32,004 bases of DNA from Candidatus Roizmanbacteria bacterium RIFCSPHIGHO2_12_FULL_37_23 (GTDB lineage: Bacteria; Patescibacteriota; Microgenomatia; UBA1406; HO2-37-13b): positions 1 to 32,004 of the forward strand of contig MFZX01000012.1 in the NCBI GenBank assembly GCA_001788095.1. Direction: 5' to 3'. A model generated the notes under the pieces. It saw nothing but the letters and a program-made list of their open reading frames with translations. It searched no databases and was not told where the DNA came from. Made by a program: the position numbers and the translations under genes. Positions 28,005-30,596 of this stretch are shown piece by piece. Each line of letters begins with the position of its first letter. Position 1 is the stretch's first letter.

Positions 28005-28451
28005 ATGAAAGCTTTGATTCAAAGGGTTAAAAAAGGGTCTGTAAAAGTTAATAATAAGTTGGTAAGTAAAATTGGATCTGGTTATGTGGTTCTTCTTGGG
28101 ATCTTCGAAGATGATACCGAAAGTGATGTAGAAAAGATTGTTGCTAAACTAGTGAATCTCCGCATCATGTCTGATGATGCACACAAAATGAATCGTTCGA
28201 TTAAAGATATTAAAGGACAAATTCTTGTTGTGTCTCAATTTACACTGTGCGCCGATCTCACTTATGGGAGAAGACCTTCGTTTATAAAAGCCATGGATCC
28301 AACAAGAGCTAAGCATCTATATCTATTTTTCGTAAAAAAATTATCTGAACAAGACATAGATACAAAAACAGGAAAATTTGGCGAATATATGGATGTAGAA
28401 ATTGTAAATGATGGTCCAGTGACGATAATGATGAACAGTAGAAAGATATAA
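28005..28451 (+). CDS. dtd: D-aminoacyl-tRNA deacylase
   Basis: Cytosolic proofreading enzyme that removes D-amino acids and glycine wrongly attached to tRNA. The 148-residue length is typical. Visible motifs are MKALIQRVKKGSV at the N-terminus, VVSQFTLCADLTYGRRPSF (75-93, with SQFTL at 77-81) and the Gly-cisPro motif NDGPVT (135-140), which together form the active site. Possible -10 TATAGT at 27978-27983, uncertain. The stop codon is 5 bases before the -35 of the TrpR-like gene. Confidence 0.95.
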   Translation: MKALIQRVKKGSVKVNNKLVSKIGSGYVVLLGIFEDDTESDVEKIVAKLVNLRIMSDDAHKMNRSIKDIKGQILVVSQFTLCADLTYGRRPSFIKAMDPTRAKHLYLFFVKKLSEQDIDTKTGKFGEYMDVEIVNDGPVTIMMNSRKI

Positions 28452-28493: not shown

Positions 28494-28757
28494 ATGTTAA
28501 CTAAACAGGACCATAAACTACTTCACGAACTCGTCGATTCGCTCTTAAAGATGAATTCTAAGGAAAAAATGACTGATTTTTTATATGGAGTTTTAACGGA
28601 AAAAGAAATTAAAGAGATTTCAAGACGCTTAGAAATTGTTCATTTGATTAAAAAAGGACTTGCTCATAAAAAGATAGCTGAAAGATTAGAAGTTGGAGTT
28701 GCAACAGTTACTCGTGGTTCAAAAGAGTTGCAAAAAGGTCATTTTAAATATGTGTAA
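28494..28757 (+). CDS. TrpR-family transcriptional repressor
   Basis: DNA-binding protein of 87 residues in the TrpR superfamily; the family forms helical dimers with a helix-turn-helix. LTEKEIKEISRRLEIVHLI (34-52) and the helix-turn-helix 57-78 (KIAERLEVGVATVTRGSKEL) align closely with E. coli TrpR. Arg45 and Arg74 correspond to TrpR Arg54 and Arg84, which contact L-tryptophan, and the ATxTRGS recognition segment is kept. It lacks the long TrpR N- and C-terminal arms (E. coli TrpR is 108 residues). The trp-operator-like site across its own promoter suggests autoregulation. A ligand of tryptophan is plausible but not shown. It faces the second TrpR-superfamily gene. Confidence 0.82.
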   Translation: MLTKQDHKLLHELVDSLLKMNSKEKMTDFLYGVLTEKEIKEISRRLEIVHLIKKGLAHKKIAERLEVGVATVTRGSKELQKGHFKYV

Positions 28758-28771
28758 ATTCTTTTATGTCC

Positions 28772-28801
28772 AAAATGGCTCTATTCTTGATGGAGCTTTT
28801 T
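28772..28801. terminator. Weak bidirectional terminator between the two TrpR-superfamily genes
   Basis: GCTC at 28778-28781 and GAGC at 28793-28796 form a short stem with an 11-base loop, flanked by AAAA at 28772-28775 and TTTTT at 28797-28801, so either strand ends in a T-run. The stem is short and overlaps the last codons of the minus-strand gene; the call is tentative. Confidence 0.35.
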
Positions 28802-29116
28802 AAGTGTTTTCCAGTATCCACCACAGCCCTGGAACAGCCAGTGAGCAACCCTTGTTACCGTTGTAGTTGATACGCCGATTTTGTCTGCAACCTCTTGATA
28901 TGAATGTCCCCTTTTGAGTAAGCGAGCCATTTCCAAGCGATTTGCAAATTCAACAATTTCACTAAAAGTCAATAAGTCTCTTAAAAGTGCAGACATTTCC
29001 TTTTCATTTTTACACGATAAAAAAGCTTGCATTAATTTTCTTTCCCTTTCGTTTCGTGCCCTATAACTTTCTTGTTGTATAAAAGTAGCACTTTCAGATC
29101 TTCGAATGTTTGTCAT
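28781..29116 (-). CDS. TrpR-superfamily repressor, YerC/HisR-like
   Basis: 111-residue DNA-binding protein. An Arg/Glu-rich N-terminal extension (1-30) precedes the TrpR-like core: LLTFSEIVEFANRLEMARLLKRG (48-70) and the helix-turn-helix YQEVADKIGVSTTTVTRVAHWL (73-94), then GCGGYW, typical of the YerC/YecD branch. The recognition segment reads TTVTRVAHW, not ATVTRGSKEL as in the other paralogue, so the two should read different operators. From memory, comparative genomics in Firmicutes has linked YerC-type proteins (called HisR) to histidine genes. It is transcribed away from the attenuator leader and shares a 50-base divergent region containing a 20-base palindrome. Confidence 0.82.
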   Translation of the reverse strand: MTNIRRSESATFIQQESYRARNERERKLMQAFLSCKNEKEMSALLRDLLTFSEIVEFANRLEMARLLKRGHSYQEVADKIGVSTTTVTRVAHWLFQGCGGYWKTLKKLHQE

Positions 29117-29132: not shown

Positions 29133-29160
29133 TTGACAAATCAAATTACTATGTTAACAT
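29133..29160 (+). promoter_or_regulatory. Promoter of the attenuator leader
   Basis: TTGACA at 29133-29138, a 16-base spacer and TAACAT at 29155-29160, which ends 6 bases before the leader-peptide ATG at 29167. The predicted transcript therefore begins at or beside that ATG. The -10 box is inside the palindrome 29146-29165. Confidence 0.6.
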
Positions 29161-29165
29161 AGTAA
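29146..29165. promoter_or_regulatory. 20-bp perfect palindrome, candidate operator
   Basis: TTACTATGTTAACATAGTAA is a perfect inverted repeat of 20 bases centred between 29155 and 29156. It covers the -10 and part of the spacer of the plus-strand leader promoter and the -35 position of the minus-strand YerC/HisR-like gene. A dimeric repressor bound here would block the leader and could also control its own gene. The ACTA...TAGT ends recall the trp operator but with a wider spacing, in keeping with a different paralogue. Binding is inference. Confidence 0.65.
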
Positions 29166-29166
29166 C

Positions 29167-29232
29167 ATGTTAATAAATAAGACAGATTGGATTTCTACAA
29201 TTAATCATCACTTCCTCGCGAAGGCGGGGTAA
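29167..29232 (+). CDS. Leader peptide with tandem His codons
   Basis: A 21-codon reading frame beginning MLINKTDWISTINHH and ending FLAKAG, stop TAA at 29230-29232. It starts 6 bases after a -10 box, so it is probably read from a leaderless mRNA. Codons 14 and 15 are CAT CAC (29206-29211), two His codons in a row, and there is one Trp codon at position 8 (29188-29190). Attenuator segment 1 starts within the second His codon and segment 2 overlaps the stop codon. This is the arrangement of amino-acid leader peptides such as those of trp and his operons. The peptide itself should have no other role. Confidence 0.7.
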   Translation: MLINKTDWISTINHHFLAKAG

Positions 29233-29279
29233 GTTTTATAGCATTAATTACTTAGACCCGCCACCCGGCGGGTTTTTTT
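29210..29279 (+). promoter_or_regulatory. Four-segment transcription attenuator
   Basis: Three competing hairpins can be drawn. 1:2, 29210-29219 (ACTTCCTCGC) with 29224-29234: 10 pairs, one G-U and one bulged T, loop GAAG. 2:3, the antiterminator: GGCGGG 29223-29228 with CCCGCC 29257-29262, extended by TAAGT 29230-29234 with ACTTA 29250-29254, 11 pairs. 3:4, the terminator. A ribosome stalled at the His codons (29206-29211) would cover segment 1 and free segment 2, allowing the antiterminator; a ribosome reaching the stop codon would cover segment 2 and allow termination. A stall at the Trp codon would leave segment 1 free, which fits less well. Confidence 0.75.
29256..29279 (+). terminator. 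Rho-independent terminator of the attenuator
   Basis: Stem ACCCGCC (29256-29262) with GGCGGGT (29267-29273), loop ACCC, seven pairs, followed by seven T in a row (29273-29279). It lies 21 bases before the ATG of the 431-residue protein, so unless it is prevented from folding, transcription from the leader promoter should stop here. Confidence 0.85.
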
Positions 29280-29300
29280 ATTAGTTTCATATATATAAAA

Positions 29301-30596
29301 ATGAATAATATATTACAAACAGAAAAAATCACATGCAAAGATATTGCAAAATTAATTCCTAACGTCGACGGTGTTATCCCTAGTGGGAGTAGTGAAAAAG
29401 TAATTCGTAAGGAATTTCAAAAGAGAGATTCATTACAGAATGACAAGATTAAAAACGTATATAGTCAATTAGAGTCAATTTTTAAAGCAGCTGAGGTTGT
29501 TGGTTTAGACCTGACTGCTAATGATGCGTCGCGACTAGTTCGAGATGTTTTGGAAGGTTCAAAAAATGGATCACTCTCATTTCCCTCTATGTACAAAGGA
29601 GTGAGTTTTAATCCGAAAACATACGATCAATCTCGAGGCAGGGGAGAATGGATTGTTTTGTTAGATTTTTTTTCTCTTATGCGTTCCTTTGTAAATGAAA
29701 CGACAGTAATGAATCAAGAGAATCCGAAATTTCTTATTCTTGACGCTGGATTATATTGGATTATTAATCTACTTGGCATAGAAGGTATAAAGCTGAAAAA
29801 TCAAACCCCTCGTGGAGCGGCTTCCGAATTGCTTGAAACTATTAAAACATCATTGCAAAAAACTGAGTTTAAAGAAATCGTTGAGTGTAATAGAATTAGA
29901 AATGCATATCTCAGAGCCATCGCACAACAGTTTCCCGCAAACATGGCACCCCAGGTTTTAAGTTTAAAAGATATTTGGTATGACGATTCGTTCACACAGT
30001 TTCTTAGTAAAGCAATAGAGCTATTTTGCACAAGAGGTATTAAAGGGTGGAAAGTGTCAAGGCCCGTATTTTACCAGCGATATATGCCATATAGCCCCTG
30101 GGTGACTCCTTTGGTCGCTGCTGAGCAAATTTTTGTTGGGCAACGATTCGGTTTCTCTGGTATTTTATCACCCACTGCAGAAGCGGGTTGGAATAAAGCC
30201 ATCGATCAATTCAGTCGATATATGAATACAAAAACGTATATTGCTTGGATGTATTCACGCAAAATCGGAAAAAAACTTTCATATGAATGGGTCCCATTCT
30301 TTTCAGATTCAGAAGATAAGCTTAGGAGTAAGATGCAAATGGCTCAGACGGTCGATCCAAGCGCTAATGAACTGGTAATAAAGTTTGTTACGCCATTTGT
30401 AGAACCTGAAATGATAGCAAACATGAATGACGCACTGAAAAAAAGGAATTTGAAAAAACTATCGGAATTTGTATTTAATTTTATGAATAGAATTGAAAAA
30501 CAAGCATGCGAATTTCTCGATTCTGAAAAAGATATTCCACTCACACCTCTTAATCAAATTGGTTGGCTCACAAATTTTCCTCCTGGAATATGTTAG
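29301..30596 (+). CDS. Uncharacterised histidine-free protein under attenuator control
   Basis: 431 residues; I do not recognise the family. No signal peptide or convincing transmembrane helix is visible, so it is probably cytosolic. The N-terminal 110 residues look helical and charged; the middle has FLILDAGLYWIINLLGIEGI (about 145-164); the most motif-like part is FYQRYMPYSPWVTP followed by AAEQIF and SPTAEAGWNKAIDQF (about 255-300). The protein contains no histidine at all, while it has nine Trp and five Cys, so it would not be starved by lack of His. It follows a His-codon leader and attenuator and is next to a YerC/HisR-like repressor gene, which suggests it is made when histidine is short. 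Whether it is an enzyme, a tRNA-related factor or something else is open. Confidence 0.75.
   Translation: MNNILQTEKITCKDIAKLIPNVDGVIPSGSSEKVIRKEFQKRDSLQNDKIKNVYSQLESIFKAAEVVGLDLTANDASRLVRDVLEGSKNGSLSFPSMYKGVSFNPKTYDQSRGRGEWIVLLDFFSLMRSFVNETTVMNQENPKFLILDAGLYWIINLLGIEGIKLKNQTPRGAASELLETIKTSLQKTEFKEIVECNRIRNAYLRAIAQQFPANMAPQVLSLKDIWYDDSFTQFLSKAIELFCTRGIKGWKVSRPVFYQRYMPYSPWVTPLVAAEQIFVGQRFGFSGILSPTAEAGWNKAIDQFSRYMNTKTYIAWMYSRKIGKKLSYEWVPFFSDSEDKLRSKMQMAQTVDPSANELVIKFVTPFVEPEMIANMNDALKKRNLKKLSEFVFNFMNRIEKQACEFLDSEKDIPLTPLNQIGWLTNFPPGIC

Follow-up and report, generated by a model that had tools for sequence, protein, structure and literature searches.

A gene for an uncharacterised 431-residue protein is preceded, in the window studied here (the whole contig C12, 32,004 bases long, of a 95% complete genome of 1.09 Mb), by a short leader frame with tandem His codons and by three mutually exclusive hairpins that end in an intrinsic terminator. 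The architecture of the his and trp attenuators is thus present, and the region is very likely to be a ribosome-mediated transcription attenuator that senses histidyl-tRNA; the switching as such is inferred from sequence alone and is not backed by an experiment.

Leader peptide and alternative hairpins

The leader peptide, MLINKTDWISTINHHFLAKAG, is read on the forward strand from a 21-codon frame at positions 29167-29232, with a predicted start codon. Codons 14 and 15 of this frame are the tandem His control codons CAT CAC (29206-29211, forward strand), which overlap the beginning of segment 1 at position 29210. The first of the hairpins, 1:2 (29210-29234), is found in the minimum-energy fold and is built around the GC core CCTCGC GAAG GCGGGG (29214-29229); its 5' arm shares bases with the CAC codon, and the leader stop codon is located in the 3' arm. 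In the antiterminator hairpin 2:3 (29223-29262), GGCGGG at 29223-29228 pairs with CCCGCC at 29257-29262. The intrinsic terminator (29254-29279) consists of hairpin 3:4 (29254-29275) and a tract of seven T residues that ends at 29279. All three hairpins, like the leader, lie on the forward strand.

The fold of the region 29160-29285 has a predicted energy of -37.7 kcal/mol, 5.1 standard deviations below the energies of 200 shuffled sequences (z = -5.1). Omission of the sequence through 9 nt past the second His codon, the stretch that a ribosome stalled at the His codons would cover, switches the fold to the 2:3 pairing. Two terminator-like sites were found, compared with 0.2 expected by chance. 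The original prediction, a four-segment attenuator with tandem His codons, held with respect to the leader, the hairpins, and the seven T residues, as did its claims that the control codons overlap segment 1 and the stop codon overlaps segment 2. The check that it proposed, folding of the 29160-29285 region, supports the three hairpins through the combination of the minimum-energy fold and the refolding.

In the proposed mechanism, a ribosome supplied with plentiful His-tRNA would pass the CAT CAC codons and reach the stop codon within segment 2, which would leave segment 3 free to pair with segment 4 and end transcription at about position 29279. When His-tRNA is short, the ribosome would stall at the His codons and cover segment 1, segments 2 and 3 would pair, and RNA polymerase would continue into the gene for the 431-residue protein.

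This arrangement shares with the enterobacterial his and trp attenuators a leader with tandem codons for the sensed amino acid, the position of the control codons at segment 1 and of the stop codon in segment 2, the alternative 1:2, 2:3, and 3:4 hairpins, and the T tract. Unlike those attenuators, it precedes a gene that is no known amino acid biosynthesis gene and is found in CPR genomes, near a gene of the TrpR family; in one of the relatives (L016), the His codons are even located inside the tail of the regulator gene. The difference is also seen in Rfam searches of the leader region, in which no family scored above its gathering cut-off: His_leader (RF00514) gave no match either at the gathering cut-off or at E <= 10, and Trp_leader (RF00513) gave only a subthreshold match of 24.4 of the 41 bits.

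Conservation of the leader in bacterial relatives

An alternative explanation is that the window contains an ordinary intrinsic terminator between two divergent genes and that the leader frame arose by chance in a short GC-rich patch, as did the 1:2 and 2:3 pairings. In favour of this view, the helices are only 6 to 10 bp long and, taken alone, the window has p values against shuffled sequences of 0.029 for the 2:3 pairing and 0.09 for the 1:2 hairpin. The evidence against it comes from comparison with other genomes.

The gene family is rare and its distribution is patchy. Homologues of the 431-residue protein were not found in 95 genomes of near relatives, and there are 3 in 380 genomes of the same phylum. 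A scan of 84,980 species genomes yielded 11 loci, three of which were repeats of those from the 380-genome search. There are seven bacterial members, which come from very divergent CPR lineages and display sequence identity down to about 21%. These include, besides the window, distinct loci from Doudnabacteria (L003/L007), another bacterium of the same phylum (L004/L009), Magasanikbacteria (L005/L013), Komeilibacteria (L006), Peregrinibacteria (L015), and Nomurabacteria (L016).

In all seven bacterial loci (the window, L003, L004, L005, L006, L015, and L016), there are tandem His codons with a terminator behind them. In the nomurabacterial locus, these codons are in-frame within the tail, NHHNPTK, of the trpR-like gene itself. 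The six separate target leaders, MLINKTDWISTINHHFLAKAG in the window and MQNIFSKLSHHSNSSLEGVG, MNTLPKNIVSHHQVNSS, MKQKTTQKLNHHKICPK, MTVNILQPLHHHQIISP, and MKNNFSQQVNHHNAS in the other loci, all begin with ATG. As a background, among about 80 other genes in these loci, 4 are preceded by His-His leaders, none of which has an ATG start. Such leaders are not a general feature of hisS either, with just two chance-like matches ahead of this gene in the genomes examined.

The alternative 2:3 pairing is clear in six of the seven homologues. Compared with shuffled leaders, it has p values of <0.001 in L004, 0.001 in L015, 0.003 in L006, 0.087 in L016, and 0.146 in L003, so that the last two are weak; the exception is the magasanikbacterial locus L005, where the pairing is no better than in the shuffles (p = 0.66). 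The combined p value for all seven loci, including the window, is 6e-7. The segment ends used in this test were picked by hand, and the bacterial sample is limited to seven by the rarity of the family. The leader regions are too divergent to be aligned, so the support comes from shared architecture and not from column-by-column covariation. The original prediction would have been refuted by relatives that lack both the leader frame and the alternative pairings or have the His codons replaced without another tandem codon. With tandem His codons and a terminator kept in every bacterial member, it was not refuted.

The tandem His codons in seven of seven divergent homologues and the combined p value of the 2:3 pairing, as well as the link to His in archaeal relatives (see below), make a chance origin of the leader very unlikely, and the comparative data weigh heavily against this explanation.

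Promoter region and the TrpR-family neighbour

A consensus scan identified a promoter-like pair on the forward strand at 29133-29160 (10 of 12 matches), with TTGACA at 29133-29138 and, after a 16-nt spacer, TAACAT at 29155-29160; the -10 box is preceded by TG. Its only support is the match to the consensus, and 1.8 matches this good are expected by chance. This pair predicts a transcript start at the leader ATG or a few bases away. The suggestion of a leaderless mRNA in the original prediction held in part: it fits the window and, judging by eye, the peregrinibacterial locus, and is not common to the relatives.

The -10 box is overlapped by a perfect 20-bp palindrome, TTACTATGTTAACATAGTAA (29146-29165, not assigned to a strand), the sole perfect palindrome of at least 16 bp in the whole window. 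It is followed upstream by a gene for a YerC/YecD regulator of the TrpR family (28781-29116, reverse strand), which is divergent from the leader and is recognised by the Pfam Trp_repressor model with an E value of 1.4e-18 and by the NCBIfam yecD_yerC model above its cut-off. Neither this adjacent gene nor the palindrome had been mentioned in the original prediction. A TrpR-family gene is adjacent or close to the target gene in six of the seven bacterial loci; in L005, a transposase-like gene lies between the two, and in L015 no TrpR gene is found within the 10.7 kb examined.

We predict that the palindrome is an operator of the TrpR-family protein, for which there are no binding data. In this view, the protein would probably add a second layer of control through the palindrome over the -10 box, with both the binding and the effector being inferred and not supported by experiment. 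In Gram-positive bacteria, the histidine repressor HisR, which belongs to the TrpR family, binds to 20-bp palindromes (PMC9413887), and the palindrome in the window has the same size as the published HisR consensus and different letters. Its 12-bp core is absent from the loci of the relatives. The histidine attenuators of Firmicutes and the HisR/YerC regulons (PMC9413887) resemble the window in their His-rich leaders and in the TrpR-family class of the repressor. However, the Firmicutes attenuators occur in lineages without HisR (PMC9413887), whereas in CPR genomes the leader and the TrpR-family gene occur together; the target genes differ as well, and the palindrome deviates from the HisR consensus.

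The same part of the window encodes a second TrpR-family protein (28494-28757, forward strand; Trp_repressor E value of 1e-18), whose gene is located end to end with the YerC-like gene and is itself preceded by a gene for D-aminoacyl-tRNA deacylase (28005-28451).

The putatively controlled protein

The controlled gene (29301-30596, forward strand) is followed by sufC. Its product had been described in the original prediction as unrecognised, which held in part: it is still without a family name, and structure prediction assigns it to the class Ic aminoacyl-tRNA synthetase-like proteins. Searches of Pfam, NCBIfam, PHROGs, PADLOC, and PDB sequences gave no convincing match; hits to PADLOC HEC-01B (E value of 0.007, 14 bits) and to an F390 synthetase (E value of 0.012) were dismissed as noise. 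AlphaFold models of the window protein and of its L004 homologue have pLDDT values of 86.8 and 91.6, respectively. With either model, the top 50 Foldseek matches in the PDB are all TyrRS or TrpRS, with E values down to about 1e-6, a probability of 1.00, and TM-scores of 0.4 to 0.5. The class Ic synthetase-like fold is thus a model-based prediction that rests on structure alone. The HIGH and KMSKS motifs of TyrRS and TrpRS are unrecognisable by inspection in the family alignments A2 and A5, in which an invariant Glu is found near the HIGH position, and there is neither a Pfam match nor a significant hhalign comparison of the family with TyrRS or TrpRS. Direct sequence homology to these enzymes lacks significant support.

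The ordinary class II hisS scores over the cut-off in 11 of the 12 genomes that carry the gene, the twelfth (G475) having only a weak hisS match. Therefore, the family protein is no substitute HisRS. Given a synthetase-like fold without recognisable ATP-activation motifs, its target is probably tRNA or aminoacyl-tRNA under conditions that leave little charged tRNA-His, an activity that is inferred and not shown by experiment; a role in binding tRNA or aminoacyl-tRNA could be accommodated by the predicted fold. A viral or plasmid origin of the family was also rejected, as no relatives were found in the phages, plasmids, and viral contigs searched.

Another candidate for the product is a diverged cyclodipeptide synthase that uses His-tRNA. 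Cyclodipeptide synthases share a class Ic-like fold, and an invariant Ser that follows the first strand and a conserved Glu resemble, by eye, their catalytic residues; this alignment by eye was discounted as evidence. On the other side, neither the family nor the genome of the window yields a match to PF16715, the profile comparison is not significant, the top 50 structural matches in both searches are to TyrRS and TrpRS, and induction at low His-tRNA would be odd for an enzyme that consumes it. We regard this candidate as unlikely.

Two further observations concern synthetases in these genomes. The Doudnabacteria genome encodes a second HisRS-like protein (G147:C18:5153-6331; L142 5105-6382), which scores 193 bits against hisS, below the cut-off, and whose gene is not part of a his operon; it is separated from the family gene by about 27 kb. 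The genome of the window (G000) has one PF00579 (TyrRS/TrpRS-type) match, compared with two in each of six other genomes; its assembly is incomplete.

Archaeal relatives and the CTT-CAY codon pair

Archaeal members of the family include five from Micrarchaeota, found in the scan of species genomes, and more distant ones, which are linked to the family by profile comparison (E value of 1e-15). None has a leader of the bacterial type. Instead, in 10 of the 14 archaeal relatives, a Shine-Dalgarno sequence and ATG open a short frame, and the gene, which has no equivalent start of its own, lies in the +1 frame. The genes of four distant members (L028, L029, L030, and L078) open in frame. The overlap of the two frames contains CTT-CAY (Leu-His) in nine of these ten cases and GTT-CAT in the remaining one. 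In ordinary coding frames, 5 of every 10,000 codon pairs are CTT-CAY, and the overlaps span 8 to 47 pairs. An internal Shine-Dalgarno-like element is found shortly before CTT in 26 of the 34 listed cassettes (a table that includes one mislocated row, L134), compared with 20% of all CTTCAY sequences.

A mechanical test for the cassette (ATG with a Shine-Dalgarno sequence, a short zero frame, and a long +1 frame) was applied to CTT-NNN pairs in the archaeal loci. It was passed by 27 of 339 CTT-CAY pairs, compared with 28 of 7,920 pairs with other second codons (Fisher p = 1.8e-23, or 2.5e-21 after subtraction of two counts from a duplicated locus). These p values are inflated, since hisD and the family guided the choice of loci and related genomes cannot count as independent; nevertheless, this choice does not account for the preference for a single codon above all the rest. 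The genome pattern GGNMGNGRNNTNCTTCAY found cassettes along with many ordinary coding matches. Assembly error is an unlikely source of the frameshifts because one and the same pair of codons turns up in many genomes that were assembled independently.

It is likely, then, that a +1 ribosomal frameshift at CTT-CAY controls the family in Micrarchaeota, with the shift and the slowness of CAY both being inferences from the sequence. The closest parallel is release factor 2, in which a programmed +1 frameshift takes place at CUU UGA with the help of an internal Shine-Dalgarno sequence (PMC5009743). Both systems combine a CUU shift codon, a slow next codon, an internal Shine-Dalgarno-like element upstream, and a short zero-frame open reading frame with the functional domain in the +1 frame. 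In contrast to release factor 2, the archaeal slow codon (its slowness being inferred) is a sense His codon in place of UGA, and the targets are his biosynthesis genes, AbrB-like regulators, and the TyrRS-like family.

Cassettes on his genes and AbrB-like genes

A search for hisD found it in 36 of 295 genomes, from which 30 loci were taken. The cassette is present on hisG or hisD in 12 of these 30 archaeal loci: on hisD in L124, L130, L133, L136, L138, and L139; in L114 (with a GTG start), L115, L117, L127, L140, and L141, it is carried by hisG or a hisG-hisD fusion. Here, hisG was identified by its N-terminal sequence and not by a model. By pattern search and reading of upstream regions, cassettes were also found in small AbrB/MazE-like genes (Pfam matches below the cut-off) just upstream of archaeal family genes. 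The AbrB-like genes of L027 (L088), L031, and L079 would need two successive +1 shifts at His codons to reach the DNA-binding domain. In G675, an AbrB-like gene and, after it, hisD each carry the cassette; the genes that follow read as hisC, hisB, hisG, hisH, hisA, hisF, and hisI, with only hisD confirmed by a family model. This locus (L092/L143, G675:C16) looks like a complete micrarchaeal his operon, in which the leading AbrB-like gene and hisD both need a +1 shift at CTT-CAT.

In L010 (4411-4803) and L078 (578-997), the archaeal family gene is preceded by a gene for a MazE/AbrB-ACT fusion. ACT domains bind amino acids, so this fusion may be a histidine-linked regulator. In addition, a short frame, MGIIDLNSAFENSIASHHHTC, is found upstream of the archaeal hisS of G471 (L044), possibly by chance.

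Both the bacterial and the archaeal device would raise expression of the family when charged tRNA-His is low. The gene therefore most likely belongs to a histidine-shortage response, an inference again made from sequence alone. It remains possible that the switch senses histidyl-tRNA and the role of the protein is unrelated to histidine supply, as in a response to tRNA-His being lost through nuclease attack or synthetase inhibition. Such a role would be in line with the resemblance of the product to a tRNA-handling protein, with HisRS being present and not replaced in 11 of the 12 genomes, and with the rare and patchy occurrence of the gene. Against it, the CTT-CAY cassette of Micrarchaeota is also found on hisG and hisD, which points to histidine supply as the signal. 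Returning to the shortage response, a bolder reading, which we also consider likely, is that a shortage of histidyl-tRNA induces a family common to CPR bacteria and Micrarchaeota by way of two sensors that are unrelated to each other, attenuation of transcription in the former and a programmed +1 frameshift at a hungry His codon in the latter, and that the archaeal sensor also controls hisG, hisD, and AbrB-like regulators.

Implications

We found no description of a CTT-CAY frameshift device in the open literature searched, which leaves out most subscription journals. A 2021 review lists for archaea only a single cellular gene with reported frameshifting, and there the shift is -1 (PMC8211752). 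The archaeal frameshift, if true, would add a new mode of control over amino acid biosynthesis in archaea. "Hungry codon" frameshifting has mostly been studied as an error; if the archaeal half of this analysis is right, its use as a regulatory sensor becomes directly testable. In textbooks, attenuation is mostly linked with operons for amino acid biosynthesis. Its presence on an uncharacterised synthetase-like protein in small CPR genomes hints at a dedicated response to histidine shortage, and the His-linked control offers a handle on the function of this unnamed protein family.
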